Notes under the pieces: model-generated | Database searches by the model: none | Told to the model about the DNA's origin: nothing | Seen by the model: only the letters and a program-made list of their open reading frames with translations | Origin: Hydra vulgaris | Taxonomy: Eukaryota > Cnidaria > Hydrozoa > Anthoathecata > Hydridae | Assembly: GCF_038396675.1 (NCBI RefSeq) | Contig: NC_088921.1 | Coordinates: 43,239,501 to 43,303,500 of the forward strand | Direction: 5' to 3' | Length of the DNA: 64,000 bases | Position numbers and translations under genes: made by a program | Part shown: one piece after another, positions 2,615 to 46,803 of the stretch | How positions within the stretch are numbered: position 1 is the first letter of the stretch | Layout of the letters: each line of letters starts with the position of its first letter

Positions 2615-2761
2615 TGTTAAAGGGTTAATATTTACTAAACTTTCAAACTAAATTTAGAAATATATAATATGATCTCAAACTATGTTTATTACACCAATCA
2701 AAAATATTTGGTACTTTTGCTTATTCAATATAACACTAGCACTTTTTTCATACTATAAACT

Positions 2762-4972
2762 AAAGATTGTTATGATGTCAAAACTAAAAACTGTTACTGT
2801 CTTGAAACTATTGATTGTTACTGTCTCGAAACTATAGATTGTTACTGTCTTGAAACTATAGATTATTACTGCCCTGAAACTATCGATTGTTACTGTCTTG
2901 AAACTATAGATTGTTACCGTCTTGAAACTATTGATTGTTACTGTCTCAAAACTATAGATTGTTACTGTCTTAAAACTATAGATTGTTACTGTCTTGAAAC
3001 TATAGATTATTACTGCCTTGAAACTACCGATTGTTACTATCTCGAAACTATAGATTGTTACTGTCTTGAAACTATAGATTGTTACTGTCTTGAAACTATA
3101 GATTGTTACTGTCTTAAAACTATAGATTGTTACTGTCTTGAAACTATAGATTGTTACCGTCTTGAAACTAAAGATTGTTACTTTCTTGAAACTATAGATT
3201 GTTACCGTCTTGAAACTATTGATTGTTACTGTCTCAAAACTATAGATTGTTACTGTCTTAAAACTATAGATTGTTACTGTCTTGAAACTATAGATTATTA
3301 CTGCCTTGAAACTATCGATTGTTACTATCTCGAAACTATAGATTGTTACTGTCTTGAAACTATAGATTGTTACTGTCTTGAAACTATAGATTGTTACTGT
3401 CTTAAAACTATAGATTGTTACTGTCTTGAAACTATAGATTGTTACCGTCTTGAAACTAAAGATTGTTACTTTCTTGAAACTATAGATTGTTACTGTCTTG
3501 AAACTATCGATTGTTACTGTCTAAAAACTATCGATTGTTACTGTCTCAAAACTATAGATTGTTACTTTTTTGAAACTATAGATTGTTACCGTCTTGAAAC
3601 TATAGATTGTTACTGTCTTAAAACTATAGATTGTTACTGTCTCAAAACTATAGATTGTTACCGTCTTGAAACTATAGATTGTTACTGTCTTGAAACTATA
3701 GATTATTACTGTCTTGAAACTATCGATTGTTACTTTCTTGAATCTATAGATTGTTACAGTCTTGAAACTATAGATTGTTACTGTCCTAAAACTATAGATT
3801 GTTACTGTTTTGAAACTATCGAATGTTACTTTCTTGAATCTATAGATTGTTACAGTCTTGAAACTATAGATTGTTACTGTCTTGAAACTATAGATTGTTA
3901 CCATCTTGAAACTGTTGATTGTTACTGTCTTGAAACTATAGATTATTACTGAATTGAAACTATCAATTGTTACTGTCTCGAAACTATCGATTGTTACTGT
4001 CTCAAAACTATAGATTGTTACTTTTTTGAAACTATAGATTGTTACCGTCTTGAAACTATAGATTGTTACTGTCTTAAAACTATAGATTGTTACTGTCTTG
4101 AAACTATAGATTGTTACTGTCTTGAAACTATAGATTGTTACCGTCTTGAAACTATAGATTGTTATTGTCTTAAAACTATAGATTGTTACTGTCTTAAAAC
4201 TATAGATTGTTACTTTCTTGAAACTATAGATTGTTACTGTCTTGAAACTATAGATTGTTACCGTCTTGAAACTATAGATTGTTACTGTCTTGAAACTATA
4301 GATTGTTACTTTCTTGAAACTATAGATTGTTACTGTCTCGAAACTATAGATTGTTATTTTCTTGAAACTATCGATTGTTACTGTCTCAAAACTATAGATT
4401 GCTACTGTCTTGAAACTATAGATTGTTACCGTCTTGAAACTATTGATTGTTACTGTCTTGAAATTATAGATTGTTACTGCCTTGAAACTATCGATTGTTA
4501 CTGTCTTGAAACTATAGATTGTTACTTTCTTGAAACTATAGATTGTTACTGTCTTGAAACTATAGATTGTTACTTTCTTGAAACTATAGATTGTTCCCGT
4601 CTTGAAACTATTGATTGTTACTGTCTCAAAACTATAGATTGTTACTGTCTCAAAACTATAGATAGTTACTTTCTTGAAACTATAGATTGTTACTGTCTTG
4701 AAACTATAGATTGTTACTTTCTTGAAACTATAGATTGTTACAGTCTTGAAACTATAGATTGTTACTGTCTTGAAACTATAGATTGTTACTTTCTTGAAAC
4801 TATAGATTGCTACCGTCTTGAAACTATAGATTGTTACTGTCTCGAAACTATTAGATTGTTACTGTCTCAAAACTATAGATTGTTACTTTCTTGAAACTAT
4901 AGATTGTTAATGTCTTGAAACTATAGATTGTTACTGTCTCACAACTATAGATTGTTACTGTCTCGAAACTTT
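2762..4972. repeat. 24-bp minisatellite, about 90 copies, with higher-order structure
   Basis: A 2.2 kb array is built from a 24-bp unit with core GATTGTTACTGTCTTGAAAC followed by TATA. Variants differ at a few fixed positions (CTGTCTTG, CTGTCTCA, CTTTCTTG, CCGTCTTG; TATAG, TATCG, TATTG). The segment starting at 2911 recurs at 3199, an offset of 288 bp or exactly 12 units, and matches through about 3486 almost without change. A second block at 3561 recurs at 4017, an offset of 456 bp or 19 units. The unit length is a multiple of three, so the minus strand reads as an 8-residue repeat (VTIYSFKT). I treat that reading frame as a by-product. Confidence 0.95.
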
Positions 4973-7344: not shown

Positions 7345-7459
7345 TATTTCATGAAAGCAGGTCAAAAATTATGTGAGGCCTTCATCAAGCCTGTTGGAGA
7401 TAATAACAAGTCCTGGGCCCCACATTTCACATGTGAATACAGCAAGAGAACTTTTGAAG
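7345..7459 (+). pseudogene. Exon-like fragment of an unassigned transposon-associated protein family
   Basis: An open segment reads MKAGQKLCEAFIKPVGDNN, continues KSWAPHFTCEY and SKRTFE, and stops at a good donor, GAAG|GTAAGT (GT at 7460-7461). The layout (short acidic linker, W-A-P-x-x-x-C, then Cys-containing segment) resembles the N-terminal Cys-rich region of the protein encoded at 35237-36903, which has DKTWAPRVACYSC at the same place. I infer a fragment of a diverged relative of that family. No further exons were found before the Tc1 element that starts at 7527. Confidence 0.4.
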
Positions 7460-7807
7460 GTAAGTTGAATAATTGCTTCTCACTTAGATGTGCTTTATTT
7501 TGTAGAAGTTCAATCATTTTCATATACAGTATTGGACAAAACATTTTCAACCAACATCGAACAACGCTAAAAAGTGTTCTAATTTTACATGTCTTAAAAA
7601 CGAAACGAACTATACTACCACAGCAAACAGTTCAGGAGTCTGGAGTCATAGCATGCCATGACATGAGCAATCAGCTGACAGGTGACAGCACACAGGCAGA
7701 ATTTGGTTGACAAGTGCCATTTTGCAGCGGACAAAACAAGTGCAACTTTTTTGGTTTGTTTCATTTTCTTAAGTCTGGTCCGTGTCAAAGTTTTTTAATA
7801 ATTAAAG

Positions 7808-8046
7808 GAAGTATCCAGAAGTTTCCAGAAGTTTCCAGAAGCATGCAGAAGCTTCCAGAAGTTTCCAGAAGAAGCCTCTGGAAGCATCCATTAGTATCCA
7901 GAAATATCCAGAAACATTCAGAAGCATCCAGACGCATTCAGAAGCTTCCAGAAGCATAAAAAAGAAGCATCTAGAATCTTCCAGAACAGGTTCACACAGG
8001 TTCATTTTACTATATAAGAGACATGTAAATCGACATGTAATTCAGT
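7808..8046 (+). promoter_or_regulatory. Heat-shock-element array, TATA box and initiator inside the Tc1 element
   Basis: From 7808 to about 7960 a 10-bp period repeats GTTTCCAGAA-like units. These are alternating nGAAn and nTTCn pentamers, the binding pattern of heat-shock factor trimers. A further three-pentamer site (AGAAT CTTCC AGAAC) sits at 7973-7987. It is followed by TATATAAG at 8011-8018 and a TTCAGT initiator at about 8041-8046, 30 bp downstream of the TATA box. The transposase ATG is at 8228, so the predicted leader is about 185 nt and A-rich. This arrangement closely resembles an hsp promoter. Function is inferred from pattern and spacing only. Confidence 0.7.
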
Positions 8047-8227
8047 CAGTATATGGAAGTCAATCAGTCAGTATTATCAAGACAGTTTATCGAAGTGAGT
8101 TTTATCAAAGTGTTTTATCGAAGAACATCAATACAAGAAGTGAAATACAACAAGTGTTTCATTACATCAATACAATCCACATCCAACCAAGACGTTGTGT
8201 TCCACAGAACATTATTGTATCATCACA

Positions 8228-9244
8228 ATGGCAAAAATGGCTCCCGACAGTCTTGGATTGGAACTAAGAAAGAAAATTATTGGCGATTACTTAAGTGGAA
8301 TGTCACAAAAAAGTATTTGTGATAAATATCGCGTGAAAAAAGGACCGTATCAAGACTATGTTCCAAATATCATTCTACGGGGAAGTTGGCAGCAGATAAC
8401 AAAGGTGGAAGACCGCGTTCCACCACTTCTAGAGAGGATTCTATGATCGTCAGATCCGTCAAGAAGGATCCCTGGATATCATCAGTCGAGATACAAAAGC
8501 AATTAGAACTGCCTGTATCGGACCGAACAATCAGACGACGGGCTGTTGAAGCCGGATTGTTTTCTCGACGCCCTGCAAAATAACCACTGATTTCACTAAA
8601 AAACCAGAAGAAAAGACTCCTGTTTGCTACATCTCATATTGACTGGAATGTGCAGAAATGGCAAACTGTCCTGTTCAGTGATGAATCGAAGTTCAACATC
8701 ATTGGGAGCGATAGCATTTGCTGTGTACGTCGACCGGCCAGAAAACGCCTTGATTTACATTACTGCCATAAGACTGTGAAGCATGGTGGAGGCAATGTAA
8801 TGGCCTGGGGGTATTTTTCTGCTAACGGTCTAGGTCCAATACATCGAAACGATGGAATAATGGACCGTTTCATGTATAAAAATATCCTGAAAGATGTTAT
8901 GTTACCTCATGCTGAATGGAATATGCCAATAAAATGGGTTTTTCAGCAAGACAACGATCCGAAACACACTGCAAAAGTAGTCAAGCAGTGGTTTCAAGAC
9001 AACCACCTATCGGTGATGGATTGGCCGCCTCAATCTCCGGATCTCAACCCTATCGAGAACCTGTGGGAAGATCGTCAACCGCAGAATTAATCGTGAAGGT
9101 GTTCGTAATAAGGATCAACTGTTTGAACAAATCCAAAAGGCTTGGGCAGCGATTCCACAAAGTTTCATTGGTCACCTATTCGAATCTATGCCTCGAAGAT
9201 GCAAGGCTGTGATCGACAACAAAGGATTCGCCACAACATATTGA
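8228..9244 (+). pseudogene. Tc1-type DD34E transposase, broken
   Basis: The start ATG at 8228 opens MAKMAPDSLGLELRKKIIG, the first helix-turn-helix. After a frameshift near 8345 the GRPR-like motif (GGRPRSTTS) and second helix-turn-helix follow, then an in-frame TAA at 8581. The catalytic core shows the first Asp in LFSDESKFN, the second in VFQQDNDPKHTA and the Glu in SPDLNPIENLWE, with exactly 34 residues between the second Asp and the Glu (DD34E). A frameshift near 9068 separates the C-terminus, which ends KGFATTY at 9244. About 335 residues in total is normal for the family. Two frameshifts and one stop make it non-functional, although all catalytic residues remain. Confidence 0.92.
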
Positions 9245-9498
9245 TAGCGAAATACAGCTTGGTCAACATTTTGTTGAGTTGCACTTGTTTTGTCCAGAAG
9301 GAAATCAACTTTTTTTAATACTTTTGATTAATTTATTAATTTTCGTGAACAAATAATGAACTTTGTGATGAATAAAACTTGAAGAACTTTGTCTCTAAAC
9401 AGTTACATAGTTATTTCTCTAAATTGAAAAAATGCAGTACTTTTATATAAAGAAACTAAATTAGCATTATTTGGTTGCACTCGTTTTGTCTAATACTG

Positions 9499-9832
9499 TA
9501 TATGTAGTTTATTTTGGGAAGTTGCATTTGACAAAATTTTTATATATACTGGTGTACTATAGAAAAATGTTTTATCGTTTTTTTAAACATATTTTGGTCA
9601 AATTGAGCAAAGTAGCCACCTATACAGAGTGAAAATATATACATTCTAGTTACCAAAAATAATAAAATTAAAACCTAACTATTAGATCTGTGCAAGACAA
9701 GAAGATTTTTGTACAAAATTGCACATTACACTTAAATGACCGAATTCAAAAATTTGCATTTTTACAGTTATCAAAATTATTTTTTGCTTTATTTACTTTT
9801 TATCTTATTTAAAAGAAAAAATCATGCACATA
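9499..9832. other. Spacer between two Tc1/mariner elements
   Basis: AT-rich sequence with no gene or repeat structure recognised. Confidence 0.5.
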
Positions 9833-10519
9833 ACGGGTGAACAGTAAAATTTGAGATTTTTTTAACGGTTTTTATTTTTGAATTTTTTTGTGCACTGATT
9901 CATTTATTGTTTCTATTTTAGAGCCCACTCTCTGTAGCTGCTGCTGGCAAAGTTTTATGAAAATATTCTTACTATTTTGTAATCTACATCAAAATGAAGC
10001 GTGAAAGTTTGATTGATCATGTGTTCAGGTATTGTGATTAGCATTTCAAGGAAGGTAGAAAAGTCGTTGAGGATCATTTTTTGAAAGAAAATCACCCTAG
10101 AGCAACCATTTGCAGATACATTTCAATGTGGAAAAAAGGCAAATCAAAACTTTGTGTTGCTGGTTCTGGTCGAAAAGCTAAAATAATGACTAAAACCAAT
10201 ATTACCAAGTCGAAAAGCATGATTGGTGGTCGTTCTGGCATTTCCACCCGACAAATTTCTCGAAAGCTCAAGTGCAGCCAATCTCACGTTGTATATACAA
10301 TTAAGCATCACAAAAATATTGTTTCCAAAAAAAAAACAGACCATTCCAGCCTGTACTCCTGAGCAAGTGTCCAAGTTACAAACATGTTGTGTCAGATTGT
10401 TCAAAAATAAATTATTTGATTATAAATCTACGAGCTGTTTTTTATTTTATCCAAAAGTATTTATCCACTGCAAAGTTAAAGCGTTTCAAAAAAACTCTCA
10501 AATTTTACTGTTCACCAGT
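9833..10519 (+). mobile_element. Internally deleted Tc1/mariner-type element (687 bp)
   Basis: TA at 9831-9832 and 10520-10521 flank near-identical inverted ends. The left starts ACGGGTGAACAGTAAAATTT and the inverted right end starts ACTGGTGAACAGTAAAATTT. The interior encodes a helix-turn-helix DNA-binding segment, but the catalytic DDE domain is missing. It is therefore a deletion derivative that could move only with help from a complete relative. Confidence 0.85.
9994..10516 (+). pseudogene. N-terminal DNA-binding part of a mariner-like transposase
   Basis: An ATG at 9994 (MKRESLIDHVFRYCD) is followed by an in-frame TAG. The same frame then continues through HFLKENHPRATICRYISMW and the second helix-turn-helix segment ISTRQISRKLKCSQSHV. 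A frameshift in a run of ten A near 10328 leads to TPEQVSKLQTCCVRLFKNK, after which the sequence runs into the right inverted end. No catalytic Asp/Glu triad is present. The retained domains could bind the element's ends, but the early stop argues against a functional protein. Family assignment rests on the Tc1/mariner-style double helix-turn-helix and the TA-flanked termini. Confidence 0.75.
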
Positions 10520-18659: not shown

Positions 18660-19016
18660 CCCTTTTTATAGTCATTATAATTAAAGATTCTCTATTTTTG
18701 CAGTGTTTTTAAAATATATGAGCGAATAAAATATATGAGGTATTGTAAAAAGTTTATAAGTTGTTAGTTTGTTTTTTTACAAAGCATTATTATGGTTTGC
18801 GGATGCACAAAAACAATCTTTAAACAAAATTAAGCTAATATTAAGTTCTAGAATACTCTTGTTAACCAAAGGACTTGTTCTTTAAGTGTAAACTCATGCT
18901 TAAGCTTTAAGTGTGAGTTAACACTTTGTCAATCGATTATCAGTTCATTGTGCCCGTGACTCACTTGAGTAAATGCTAAAATTGCTAAAACTCTTATTGG
19001 GAAACTAATTTTTTTT

Positions 19017-19541
19017 ATTTTATCATCCAAAGATGTATGGAAAAATCTTTAATTTTATCATCCAAAGATGTATGGAAAAATCTTTAATTTTATCATCCAA
19101 AGATGTATGGACAAATCTTTAATTTTATCATCCAAAGATGTATGGACAAATCTTTAATTTTATCATCCAAAGATGTATAGAAAAATCTTTAATTTTATCA
19201 TCCAAAGATGTATGGAAAAATCTTTAATTTTATCATCCAAAGATGTATGGAAAAATCTTTAATTTTGTCATCCAAAGATGTATGGACAAATCTTTAATTT
19301 TATCATCCAAAGATGTATGGACAAATCTTTAATTTTATCATTCAAAGATGTATGGAAAAATCTTTAATTTTATCATCCAAAGATGTATGGACAAATCTTT
19401 AATTTAATCATCCAAAGATGTATGGAAAAATCTTTAATTTTATCATCCAAAGATGTATGGACAAATCTTTAATTTTATCATCCAAAGATGTATGGAAAAA
19501 TCTTTAATTTTATCATCCAAAGATGTATGGAAAAATCTTTA
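19017..19541. repeat. 35-bp minisatellite, 15 copies
   Basis: Fifteen units with core TCATCCAAAGATGTATGGAA differ mostly at one position (GGAAAAAT versus GGACAAAT). The near-identity suggests recent expansion or homogenisation. Confidence 0.95.
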
Positions 19542-20028: not shown

Positions 20029-21570
20029 TCAGTATTCAAAATGTTCATCAAATTTGTTTTTGAATTGGTTGGTACTAACTGCATCTATTGTTTCTTGTAT
20101 AAGCTTGTTCCAATCATTTACCACTCTATTGGTAAAATGTCGTTTAATATTTCCCGTATATTGTCTTCTCAGTTTACTATTGTGGCCTCTAGTTTTACGG
20201 TCTTTTTGCATTGCGGACTTTATGTGAAAGTTTATGATATCGTATCCTTTCAAATATTTAAACATTTGTATCATATTATATCACCTCTTCTTCTTCTATT
20301 CTCCAGCGATAGTAATCCCAACTTTTTTAATCTCTCTTCATAGCTATATCCTCTTAAACTTTCTATTCTAGTAGCTCTCTGTTGAACACTCTCTAGTTTA
20401 TCTTTATCATACTGCCAATAAGGATTCCAGATGTGAGCTGCATATTCTAAAATTGGACGAACTAAGGCTATAATCAGAGTTTCGTTGTTTTTTCATCTAA
20501 GAATTTAAAAGTGTTTGATCTGACCTAGCTTTTGATTTGCTTTATTTTCTGCTTTATTTACATGGTGTTTCCATCCTAAATCGTCAGAAACGTACGCACC
20601 TAAATCTTTTTCCATACTTGAGTACGCTAAAGTTGTATTGTTCATTGAAAATTTGAGTTGGTTATTTCCAATTACCATAATCTTTCATTTTTGCTGGTTG
20701 AACTTCATCAATCACTCATTAGATCATTGCATTAATACGCCTATATCTTGTTGAAGTTCAATTATATCATTAGCATTTTTTATTGCTTTAAGGATTTTCG
20801 TGTCATTAGCAAAGACTTTACAGCCTGATTTTATTTTATTGGAGATATCATTGATAAAGGCTACAAATGAGAGTGCTTCTAGCACTGATCCTTGCGGTAC
20901 TCCGCTCACAACTATCACCACTCTAAGAAGCCTGTTTTTTAAAAATCCTTGGCACCAATCCAATAATTTTGATTTAAAACCAAAAGCATCCAGTTTTAAC
21001 AATAATCTTTCATGATCAACCGACTCAAACGCTTTGGCAAAATCTAAAATACAAAAAGATCACATCCCAACCATTGTCTACTGAATTTGTGATGAAATCT
21101 AGAGACTCCAATAGGTTTGTCACACAACTTTTATTATCAACAAACCCATGTTGGTTTTTATTGATTAGCATGTTATCTACTAAATTTTTCATCATTTTAT
21201 CCATAATTATCCTTTTTATGACTTCACAAACTACAGATGTTAAAGATACAAGTCTATAGTTGTTAGGATCTAATTTGCTACCATTTTTAAACAACGAAAT
21301 GATATTAGCACATGACCATAACTTTGGGAGTTTACTTCTTTCAAAGAATTTATTAAACATTATTGATAGGGGTTTGGCTAAAGCGGATTTGCACTCCTTT
21401 AGAACTTTTGGGTGAACTTTGTCCATTCCAGTTGCTTTATTAGTATCGAATTTGCTTAAGTATTCTTCTACAACAGAGACATTAAAATCTGGATTTCTAC
21501 ACAAAGTTTGTGTTTCTATATCTATGATTGGAACAGATGAATCTTGCGAATACTGATGCACAATACTCAT
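20029..21570 (-). pseudogene. LINE reverse transcriptase, frameshifted
   Basis: The N-terminal RT block reads EYLSKFDTNKATGMDKVHPK, then NYRLVSLTSVVCEVIKRI. A frameshift near 21050 splits the first catalytic motif (DFAKAFESVDH). The next segment has SGVPQGSVLEALSFVAFIND and FANDTKI in place of the usual FADD, so one catalytic Asp has become Asn. Between 20723 and 20275 several frames carry the connection region. The C-terminus MIQMFKYLKGYDIINFHIKS through RHFTNRVVNDWNKLIQ ends at 20029. The combination is typical of CR1/jockey-type LINEs. Confidence 0.88.
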
Positions 21571-35044: not shown

Positions 35045-37215
35045 CACTGGTCAACAATGAATTTGCACCGGCTTTAATTTTTCACGCTGATTCCAAATCT
35101 ATTTAGTTTTTCTCCACCACGTCTGAATCTTGAGATAATGTATGTGTATTTTTGGCACTAATTTATAGTTTCAGTGTGAAATATACTAATGTTTCTTTAT
35201 TTTCAGGGTAATTATTTCAATAAAATTAACTATATAATGCCTAGATATTGCAAAAATTCACGATACGCTTTTTGTTACATTTGTGGGCAATTTACATTGT
35301 CAGGGCAGCGAAAGAAAATCACTCCAGAAATCTCTAAAATTTATAAGCAGAATTTCAGTTGTCCTTTGAGAGATAAAACTTGGGCACCACGTGTGGCTTG
35401 TTATAGTTGTTGCAGCTTATTACGAGATTGGATCACAAACGAAGGTCTTCTTTTCGATTTGCTATACCGATGATTTGGAGGGAACCAAAGATCATTACAA
35501 AGACTGCTATTTTTGCGCTGTTAATACTGCTGGATTTTCGTCGAAAAATAAGCACCAAACTGTGTACCCGAATTTGGATTCAGCCATGAGGCCTGTTCCT
35601 CATGACAGCACCCTGCTTATTCCAGTACCGCCAGCTAATAAATTAGATTCTGTTGAAGACGAATGTGTTGTTGATGTTGAACGTCAAGATGTGGCTGATG
35701 TTGACTTTGATCCTTATATTGACGGCGAAGAGCCCAAAGTTTTCATACAAGGTGAACTGAATGATTTGGTTAGAGACTTGTCCCTTTCCAAGGAAAAAAC
35801 TGAACTTTTGACGTCAAGACTGAAAGAAAAGAATTTGTTAGCAGTTGGTGTCAAAGTATCCCAATTTTCGAAAGCGCAACAACGATTTATCTAGGTTATT
35901 CAACGTTGATGAACCCTTGTGCTACTGCAATAATGTCAATGGTCTTTTCAGAAATTTATCCCAAGAGCATTCGCCTGGTGATTGACGCTTCTTCATTGAT
36001 TCATCCAAAAGGAGTTTGAAGGCCGTGTTGTTGCATATTGGCAATCAGAAGCCATGTATTCCAATCGCTCATTCCGTACAGTTAAATGAAACGCACGAAA
36101 ATATGAAAATATTATTTGACGCTATTGATTACAAAACTCCATCAGTGGAACATTTGTGGTTATTTGAAAGTGATTGGTATGTTAATGGGTATGCAAGCTG
36201 GTTTACCAAGATCTGCTGTTTTTTTTGTTTATGGGATAGTCGTGCTGTGAACGAACATTACGTAAAACGTGGTTGGATGTTGAGAACTGAATACGAACCC
36301 GGTGTAAGTAGCGTTCACCATATACCGCTGGTTGTCTAGACAAAATATTTTTGCCACCGCTTCACATCAAGCTTGGTTTGATGAAAAACTTTGTATAAGC
36401 ATTAGGTAAAACTGAATCAGCAGGTTTTCAATACTTGGTTGAAAAATTTCCCAAAATTAGTGCAGCGAAACTCAAAGAAGGCGTTTTTGTCGGACCCCAA
36501 ATTCGAGAGATTTTGAAAGACCATGGATTTGGAGAGTCATTTACTTCCGACGAAAAAGAAGCGTGGAAAGCGTTTGTATGGGTTTGTAAAAACTTCTTGG
36601 GGAATCATAAATCGTGTGAATATGAAAATTTTATTCAAAAGCTACTCGATTCGTTCCAAAAAGTGGGCTGTCGTATATCATTGAAAATGCATTTTTATGC
36701 ATTCGCATTTGGAATTTTTTCCTAAAAATTTGGGCGCTGTGAGTGATAAACAAGGTAAACAATTCCACCAAGATATTCATGTGATGGAAAAACGTTACCA
36801 AGGATTCTGGAATGAAAGCATGTTAACTGACTACTGTTGGATGCTTTATCGTAATGAACCAGAAAAAGTCTACAAAAGGAAGTCATATTCACAGAGATTT
36901 TAAGTGATTTATATGCTTTAGTCAACAGCCTTTAAACTATTAAATGTGTATAAATGCTTACGAGTAAACCTAGTCACAGAGACTTTGACTTATTTGTATA
37001 GAAACATAAGTGGTGCTTGAAATATTGAATGTTTATTAATGTTTATGTATAAGGATAAAGTACAAAATGTCCAAAAAATAAAACTCCAATTATCTTAAGA
37101 ACTAGACGTCTGGAAGAAAACTGAAAGCAGATTTGAAATTAGCGCAAAAAACTGGTTTAAAAAAAGTTATTTAGATTCATGGTGCATTCAAAAAGTATTT
37201 TTTTGTTGACCAGTG
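35045..37215 (+). mobile_element. TIR element encoding an unassigned transposase-like protein
   Basis: The left end CACTGGTCAACAA (35045-35057) is exactly inverted at the right end (37203-37215). Beyond these 13 bp an imperfect inverted repeat continues for about 110-130 bp: left GATTCCAAATCTATTTAG, right inverted AATTTCAAATCTGCTTTCAG; both then reach an ACGTCT motif and GATAAT. The 2.17 kb interior is a single decayed protein-coding region on the plus strand. No convincing target duplication was found (TAG on the left, TTAG on the right). The family resembles predicted proteins I recall from arthropod and cnidarian genomes. I cannot name its superfamily. Confidence 0.7.
35237..36903 (+). pseudogene. 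Unassigned transposase-like protein with Cys/His-rich segments
   Basis: From ATG 35237 (MPRYCKNSRYAFCYICGQF) a Cys-rich N-terminal region runs through DKTWAPRVACYSCCSLLRDW. Two frameshifts then lead via FAIPMIWREPK to DHYKDCYFCAVNTAGFSSKN, a second Cys pair. An acidic linker follows, then LNDLVRDLSLSKEKTELLTS and RLKEKNLLAVGVKVSQFSK. Past a stop at 35892 come RSLKAVLLHIGN, GMLMGMQAG (shifted), ICCFFCLWDSRAVNEHYVKR, EGVFVGPQIREILKDHGF, FLGNHKSCEYENF and finally KQFHQDIHVMEKRYQGFW. FIDSS before RSLKA, the CxxC-W-D-S-R block and the RFHQDI-x-x-x-E block are candidate catalytic motifs, but this is inference. At least five frameshifts or stops are present. Confidence 0.7.
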
Positions 37216-44342: not shown

Positions 44343-46803
44343 TTATTTATATATTAATTTTCTACTTTTATTTTTTAGTATTTTTTTAAAACTTAATCTA
44401 CGATTATTAATTTCAAATTTATCAATAACTTTTTCGATATCTATTACTGACTCTATATGAATATTCATCAAAGCTAAACCATTTAAGCGTTCCTCTACCA
44501 TTGTGCTTCGCGTATAATTTTTCAGGCGCCGAAGCGAAGAAAATGTGCGCTCACATTCACATGAAGTTAAAGAAAAGGTAGCAAGTAACTGTAGAATAAT
44601 TTTTATGTTCTCAAAGCCAGGAAAATTTATTGCTTTTAAAGTCTCAGTAATATTAGAAGGGACATTACCTTCAAAATTTAACCAATAAGCTTCCCATAGG
44701 TCAAGCTCACCAGATAAAGCTAGTGGATTTGGTAAATCTGCCCTGTAAAATTCACTAAAAGGTACTATACATTCTTTCCAACTAGTGTCACGAGAACTTC
44801 GAACTTCTGAAATCATTTTAGTAGGAACTAGGACAAGCGCTTTATAAAATTTTATGGTAGTGTTGTCAAACCTTGTGGCTAGTTCAGTACTCAGATGGTC
44901 TAACAAAGGAATTGTGATTGCTATTTTAAAATAATCAGAAACACATTCCGAAGAAGCATTATTTCTGTTTTTTTAAATAAATGAAGTTCTTGACTTAGCT
45001 TCAGTAACATTTAGCTCATGGGCTATTTTTAGAGATTGATAAGATTTAAACCATCATAAATATCATTATTCTTTGACTGCAACATTCGTGTTACTGGAAG
45101 AGTAATGTCAAAGACATTTCTTGTTATACATAAAGCAACAATAAAGTCAAAACCTCTTATTAACTTCAGAAGCGAGGATGCACTGGAAGACGTTGAGTGA
45201 TTAAAACTCTTATTAACATTTAAAGACATTTTTTCAAGACAAGAAACCAAAGGAATAAAAAGTTCTTGAAAAGTATCCAAAACATTAACTTTTTCTACCC
45301 AAAGTGTTCTGCAAACATCTTTCAATTTTTTTTTACCAGCAACTGGAGCAGTTCTTTCAATGTGCTCCTCTAAATTTTGTTGCCTTGTAGGTGAAAGATT
45401 AAAAAAGTATGATACATCTTTAACATGCGCCAGAAGATTTTTGACATATTGAACATTGCATGATGCACAAATGGCTAAATTAAGTCTATGACTGTAACAA
45501 TGAACATATATAGCTTTTTCATTAAGATTTAAAACACGAGATGATAACCCTTTGGTGTGTCCAGACATTGCCCCAGCACCATCATATGACTGTCCTCTAC
45601 AATTCATGATATCCAACGAAAAATCTGAAATACTTTTTAACAAAACACGAAATAATCCTTGACCAGTAACACCGTTAGCGCAATGTAAGAAACTAATAAA
45701 TTCTTCTCTTATATTGAACTTGGAATCAACAAATCGTATTACTAATGATAGTTGTTCTTTATTATTACTGTCTGAGGCTTCATCATTTATAATAGAAAAA
45801 TACTTAGAGTTTTTAATTTCTCCAATTATTGCGTCAGTAACAACTTCTCCACAACACTTTATTAGTTGATTTTGTGGTGTCTTAGATATGTAGGAAGCAT
45901 TTTGTTGATGATACTTAAGATGATCTTCAAAAATTTTATCACCAGCTTGAACATGGAAATGTAGCAATTCAATAAAATTTCCTGCAGTGCGAATATAAAA
46001 TTCACCATTTTCAGAATGAAACTTAGAGTCGTCTCTATGCCCACGTAAAGAAAGCCCAAGACGCCCACAAAGAATAATTGTTTCAATAATAGGTTGCAAT
46101 AACTGTCGATTTTTGGAAATCTGTGATTGAACTATTTTTTGAGATTTAATGTCTATTGATTCTGTTTTACAAGACCAAATCGATGATAATTATACATAAT
46201 AATTTTTACATGTAAACCTTTATTTCTGCAGACAGACTTATTGTTTTTGCCAAACACATGTTTCTGAAAGTAACGAGAAGCATCATTCCAGCGATCATAA
46301 GGCTTACTAAATAAACCTTCAGCTAAACTACATTCAGATGGAAAATTGTGCCCAAAAAGTACACAAGGTAAACAGAAAGCTCCATCAAATATATTTGAGT
46401 ATGTAAGCCATGGAAATTTTTCTATTCATATAAATTGAAAACTTCGTCCATTTTTATTTTTAGGAAAAATAAATTTCTTACTAGGAACAAAAACAGATCG
46501 AACTAAATTTTGAAGTTCAGAATTATTTAAGGTTTTTGCAACATTTGAATAACTAGTATAGTTAGAAACCAAATAACCAATATCGTAATTATTGGAGGGT
46601 AAAGAAAATGGTTCACAAAAAGTAATTTTACTAAAATTGGATAAAGATGTAGATGATTGACTAGAAACTAGCATTGATTTATTTTTTATTTTTTCTTGCA
46701 AAAGATTACAATCTTGATGTTTAGATTCAACATAGAAATTTATTTTAGTATGTAACTTTTTGCCAATTCCATCGCAAATTTTGCGTTTTAAAATCTCTCT
46801 CAT
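44343..46803 (-). pseudogene. hAT transposase with TTF-type zinc finger, broken
   Basis: Reading right to left from ATG 46803: a Lys-rich N-terminus, then a TTF-like zinc-finger region around 46420-46200 (FDGAFCLPCVLFG, FSKPYDRWNDASRYFQKH). The long frame 46099-45029 holds the core: KYFSIINDEASDSNNKEQLS (catalytic Asp), NCRGQSYDGAGAMSGHTKGL (second Asp), YVHCYSHRLNLAICAS and DVCRTLWVEKVNVL. After a frameshift, 44906-44343 gives the C-terminal dimerisation region with SCECERTFSSLRRLKNYTRS (catalytic Glu) and ends at 44343. Breaks occur near 46426, 46170 and 44950. The layout is that of hAT proteins related to ZMYM/52-kDa-repressor-like transposases. Confidence 0.88.

Follow-up and report, generated by a model that had tools for sequence, protein, structure and literature searches.

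The question raised by this locus in Hydra is whether the tandem array in front of the transposase gene of a Tc1 element is a promoter responding to heat-shock factor (HSF) or a simple repeat that resembles one by chance. The window, that is, the whole 64-kb stretch of DNA analysed, corresponds to C2:43239501-43303500 of a 911.5-Mb genome in 15 contigs, which was searched for copies of the element and for its sites. The element lies on the forward strand at 7527..9498 (1,972 bp), with matching ends CAGTATTGGACAAAAC and CAGTATTAGACAAAAC; one copy of the TA target site stands on each side, at 7525..7526 and 9499..9500, in agreement with an earlier note on this DNA, which had described a TA-flanked Tc1 element. 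Inverted terminal repeats are present, as in Tc1/mariner elements. The outer direct repeats (7527..7554 on the forward and 9471..9498 on the reverse strand) fall within inverted arms at 7512-7554 and 9471-9513 that are 79% complementary, while the inner direct repeat of the left end (7729..7747, forward, 19 nt) is 100% complementary to that of the right end (9277..9295, reverse), and CAGTATTRGACAAAAC is common to both ends. Sleeping Beauty-type elements likewise have two direct repeats per end. The transposase gene at 8237..9244 (forward) is a remnant whose frame is broken in this copy; it retains an HTH part (8386-8580; Pfam PF01498) and a DDE part (8650-9087; PF13358, DDE_3), matches Sleeping Beauty 5cr4 with an E-value of 2.6e-40, and shows DD34E spacing, the second D and the E being separated by 34 residues, together with a paired HTH. 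In one scan of viral contigs, for which the DDE part served as query, no relative was confirmed.

Other repeats and mobile-element remnants also occur in the window. Tandem arrays are found at 2757-4970 (24-bp unit, 92 copies) and 19013-19541 (35-bp unit, 15 copies); a piggyBac-like DDE_Tnp_1_7 remnant lies at 1176-2392, a transposase-like fragment with an HTH, scoring below the curated cut-off, at 10081-10362, a reverse transcriptase piece (below cut-off) at 21025-21570, and hAT dimerisation and DUF4371 parts at 44343-46099.

The array occupies 150 bp of the forward strand, at 7808..7957, and was delimited by a tandem-repeat call and a pentamer scan; Tandem Repeats Finder reports a 10-bp array at 7808-7871 and an array of 30-bp period at 7808-7954. 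By sequence match, the predicted heat-shock elements (HSEs) on this strand are two perfect five-pentamer sites at 7818..7840 and 7848..7870, a perfect three-pentamer site at the end of the array (7941..7953), and a separate perfect three-pentamer site beside the core promoter (7974..7986, a slight correction of the 7973-7987 noted earlier). These four are the only alternating runs of at least three pentamers in the 64-kb window, and the 2-bp spacers of HSE geometry are found in both orders, GAAnnTTC and TTCnnGAA. The 10-bp recurrence of GAA falls into three blocks of constant phase (7808-7868, 7871-7951 and 7964-7984), with slips between them; the middle block contains two units without GAA. 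In-phase TTC occurs only at 7823, 7833, 7853, 7863, 7946 and 7979, and the units lacking it read ATC, ATT, ATG or otherwise. The description of the array as about 15 units of alternating GAA/TTC was therefore too strong, since TTC is limited to six units and the phase slips twice; the recurrence of GAA at about 10 bp stands. A first-order Markov null predicts 0.92 three-pentamer sites per 64 kb, with a maximum of 3 in 60 simulations, compared with 8 overlapping sites observed in the window, all of them in the array region. Because tandem copying multiplies a single accident, it is fairer to ask how often one unit would do so by chance: GAA/TTC alternation arises from 188 of 60,000 random tandem units of 10 bp at the composition of the window and from 563 of 60,000 at that of the array itself. 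The right end of the window element contains no perfect three-pentamer site, so an array common to both transposon ends is ruled out and the array is confined to the promoter side.

As judged by sequence match, a core promoter stands in front of the gene, at a suitable distance from the HSEs. The TATA box TATATAAGAG at 8011..8020 is exact in 29 of the 38 copies keeping the core stretch, and the initiator-like TTCAGTCAGT at 8041..8050, whose function is putative, in 32 of the 38; its TTCAGT (8041-8046) lies about 30-33 bp downstream of the TATA box, and both elements had been read correctly in the earlier note. Transcription would start near 8044, giving a leader at 8044..8236 before the start codon of the family, ATG at 8237, so that the HSEs do lie upstream of the transposase ATG as had been claimed; an extra ATG precedes it in the window copy, at 8228. 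A GT...AG block of 66 bp stands just before the start codon in 38 of 40 family copies (one copy, L018, could not be measured) and is absent from the window copy (8220-8240), whose leader was delimited by comparison with family copies. This block is a probable 5'-leader intron. The block ends in CAAG, as does the sequence preceding it, and since a deletion at this 4-bp microhomology would give an equal junction except for two changed bases, a cDNA event is not needed to explain the loss.

The same order is found across the family. Of 2,253 candidates from the genome search, the best 40 were scored and all were read (L001-L040), a sample that favours well-kept copies. Among these best 40, the array is intact in 37, partial in two (L018 and L021, in which the part kept includes perfect sites) and lost in one (L038). 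Copies lacking the array, which the earlier note had named as the observation that would overturn its reading, are thus the exception in this sample, and a minisatellite specific to this locus is ruled out. All 37 intact arrays, like that of the window copy, contain at least one perfect run of three alternating nGAAn pentamers, and 27 of the 37 contain a five-pentamer site. Array length ranges from 130 to 192 bp and differs by whole 10-bp steps in 31 of the 37; length changes mostly by entire units, and the pentamer phase is thereby kept. TA is found on both sides of the window copy and of 25 of the 32 copies with both ends found among the 40. L004 and L016 are longer than the other copies (2,228 and 2,357 bp between ends), and L004 has part of the core promoter and leader repeated. 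Genome-wide, a core-promoter 42-mer with at most 3 mismatches has 2,132 matches and a coding 42-mer 2,151, with none for either reversed control; these are genome totals without locus-by-locus pairing, and their near-equality suggests that promoter and gene usually travel together. The copy number of the family would then be about two thousand, which is large enough for the spread of HSEs by family copies that had been proposed. HSEs, TATA box, initiator-like site, leader and transposase follow one another as a family feature placed like a promoter.

The pattern of substitution is less telling. The earlier note had proposed to test whether the pentamer phase is more conserved than flanking sequence, and for the array this is not borne out: among 26 copies, the frequency of substitutions is 2.8% for the array, against 2.3% for the 5' flank, 2.4% around the TATA box and start, and 3.1% for the rest. 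Within the array, 18 of 1,265 GAA cores and 21 of 529 TTC cores are changed; GAA is the least changed triplet, the TTC cores do not stand out, and core positions differ from non-core positions with p = 0.026 in one uncorrected test. No clear signal of selection on pentamer phase was found among the copies. Pairwise differences among the 40 coding regions amount to 2.9-6.7%, spread evenly over codon positions and without close pairs, and 341-residue open frames are left in six of the 40. The family looks like one old burst followed by neutral, star-like decay, and such divergence makes selection on the HSEs, or a current function, unreadable from these copies; in an old, decaying burst the promoter most likely mattered during the spread of the family.

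The burst appears to have left a large imprint on the genome. The perfect five-pentamer sequence GAAnnTTCnnGAAnnTTCnnGAA has 2,342 genome matches, compared with 22 for its reversed control. One hundred of these were listed, all within C1:0.48-38.85 Mb and forming 65 loci; among the matches listed, sorted by eye, 62 loci (93 places) are of the family sequence type and three loci (seven places) of another type. Twelve of the 65 loci were fetched: all nine of family type have the family left flank and/or core promoter, and the remaining three belong to a second multicopy family. A strict family-type pattern accounts for 1,667 of the 2,342 matches (71%; reversed control 0). The share of 93% is extrapolated from part of one contig, and that of 71% covers the whole genome, with assignment by sequence type only; on both counts, transposon sequence appears to supply most of the strongest HSEs in the genome. 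In the second multicopy family (L085-L087), an HSE cluster and the TATA-like GTATAAAA precede an exon-like stretch coding WAPHFTC. A stretch resembling this exon by eye lies at window positions 7351-7470, which would place the Tc1 element about 57 bp 3' of a decayed copy of that family, and the ORF at 35391-35894 may be another member; a Pfam search of the window pieces resembling the family gave no match.

The host context was examined through HSF and hsp70. The HSF DNA-binding domain has five genome matches over the cut-off, one of them with internal stops and one partial. Ten upstream regions of HSP70-domain genes were sampled, including three pairs of near-identical duplicates and leaving out other HSP70 matches, such as those at C1:65.5 Mb, C2:54.6 Mb, C15:26.9 Mb and C12:37.0 Mb. 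None of the ten contains a perfect five-pentamer site, and one (L104) contains a perfect three-pentamer site. The ATC form GAAnnATCnnGAA is present in eight of the ten, 339-387 bases upstream of the point where each fetched stretch ends; of the others, L104 has the TTC form and L106 neither. The ATC form also occurs two to six times per array in each of the 37 intact arrays, compared with two occurrences in the 62,048 window bases outside the element and two in the 96,501 bases of L041-L070, a control set of other Tc1 loci. These occurrences suggest that an ATC-centred HSE variant is used in this animal, and a variant common to the array and to the hsp70 upstream regions makes the imperfect array units more credible as HSEs here. 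In place of a perfect HSE, seven of the ten upstream regions (L097-L105) have TAGAAnnATCnnGAA in common, L105 having a variant. In addition, it has been reported that step-type HSEs give low-level activation (PMC4552642, consulted in excerpt), and the GAA recurring every 10 bp on one strand of the Tc1 array fits that type.

HSE promoters are not general in the Tc1 elements of this genome. No perfect three-pentamer site was found in 38 other Tc1 loci (28 of L041-L070 and 10 of L075-L084). Since L041-L070 consist of a few families of near-identical copies, this comparison covers few independent cases, and each of L075-L084 contributes no more than about 1 kb. Two perfect three-pentamer HSEs of TTCTAGAA type do occur in a second Tc1 family, distinct from the first and represented by L054; they lie at L054 1163-1201 and start 131 and 105 bp upstream of the start codon. 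At least one HSE is found in three of six copies of this family (L054, L072 and L074) and none in the other three (L070, L071 and L073), and the HSE pair (42-mer, at most 3 mismatches) has 28 genome places, with none for the control.

On this evidence, we consider it probable, at roughly 70%, that the array is an HSF-responsive promoter of the Tc1 transposase gene. In this reading, heat or another protein-damaging stress would bring trimeric HSF onto the perfect sites of five and three pentamers and, with weaker binding, onto the parts of the array in which GAA recurs at 10 bp. The bound factor would drive transcription by RNA polymerase II from the TATA box (8011), with initiation near 8044; the transcript would lose its short leader intron and then encode the transposase. 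Stress on the host would thus have tended to make the element jump, and the promoter most likely mattered while the family was spreading. Counted against this reading were the 38 Tc1 loci without a perfect three-pentamer site, an array no more conserved than its flanks, the many units without TTC, the ease with which a tandem unit comes to resemble HSEs, and the star-like neutral divergence of the copies.

The same observations enter into a rather unlikely account, in which the ancestral element carried a neutral minisatellite with a 10-bp unit, similar to HSEs by chance and without a role, and the gene was driven by the TATA core alone. Variation in length unit by unit over 130-192 bp, array substitutions no lower than those of the flanks and TTC cores that are not less changed are what such a repeat would give; 0.3-0.9% of random 10-bp units would resemble HSEs in this way, and tandem arrays are common in this genome, with 107 Tandem Repeats Finder rows in the window alone. 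A chance repeat accounts poorly, however, for the placement of the array between the left end and the TATA box, for the additional perfect site at 7974-7986, which stands in another phase, for GAA cores less changed than TTC cores, for the ATC-type variant held in common with host hsp70 upstream regions, and for a second Tc1 family with an unrelated HSE sequence in the same place.

Two further accounts keep a function for the array and are considerably less probable. Binding of another activator, for instance an ETS-, STAT- or GAGA-like factor giving constitutive or cell-type-specific expression, seems very unlikely: TTCC/GGAA cores do occur in array units, but it is GAA, not GGAA, that recurs and is the least changed triplet, and both spacings are 2 bp, as fits HSF. 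STAT sites usually have 3-bp spacing. Cell-population-specific expression of Hydra TcMar-Tc1 elements has been described, in a source whose consulted part does not name this family (PMC12220107), and is in line with such an activator. The least probable account, with very little chance of being right, is that the array consists of subterminal sites at which the transposase or a host protein aids transposition instead of transcription; its position some 60 bp inward of the left inner direct repeat (7729-7747) would suit such sites, but the right end has no perfect three-pentamer site and the array unit is, by eye, unlike the direct-repeat core GGACAAAACAAGTGCAAC.

If the array is an HSF-responsive promoter, a wider proposal can be stated: the HSF-driven transposase would have made the burst to about two thousand copies, whose debris, supplying most of the strongest HSEs and outnumbering the hsp70 sites, would soak up HSF or put many host genes under heat control. 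This proposal is distinctly unlikely. If heat induction holds, a genome in which most perfect five-pentamer HSEs seemingly come from one transposon leads one to ask whether its heat-shock response has been rewired or buffered, and whether stress drove a particular transposition burst, for which heat shock and transgenic reporters are workable in Hydra.

A search of open-licence papers found none that describes a Hydra Tc1 element with HSEs. The Hydra element shares with Tc1 and Sleeping Beauty-like elements the TA target, a length of about 2 kb, two direct repeats per end and DD34E, and differs from them in the HSE array between left end and gene and in the probable leader intron. Binding motifs of other factors have been reported in Tc1/mariner elements of C. 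elegans (PMC8896005, in the part consulted). The closest known case is that of Caenorhabditis Helitrons, which have HSEs in the promoter of the transposase gene and for which HSF-1 binding and HSF-1-dependent heat induction were measured (PMC6927752, PMC6765114; both consulted in excerpt); they bear out the remark of the earlier note that HSE-carrying elements are known in other animals. Like the Hydra element, they are DNA transposons with clustered HSEs upstream of their own transposase gene and are spread over the genome (PMC6927752, PMC6765114). They differ in being rolling-circle elements with measured binding and induction, whereas the Hydra element is a cut-and-paste Tc1 known from its sequence (PMC6927752, PMC6765114). 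ONSEN, a copia-type retrotransposon of Arabidopsis, is heat-activated and can make neighbouring genes heat-responsive (cited in the consulted part of PMC6927752), and it differs from the Hydra Tc1 in being a plant LTR retrotransposon. In Cryptococcus, the LTR elements TCN12 and TCN3 have putative HSEs in their promoter-bearing part, one or two sites per LTR as against the tandem array before a DNA transposase in Hydra (PMC12810828, excerpt). Should heat induction prove true, the Hydra element would be a cut-and-paste Tc1 case of the principle documented for Helitrons and LTR elements.
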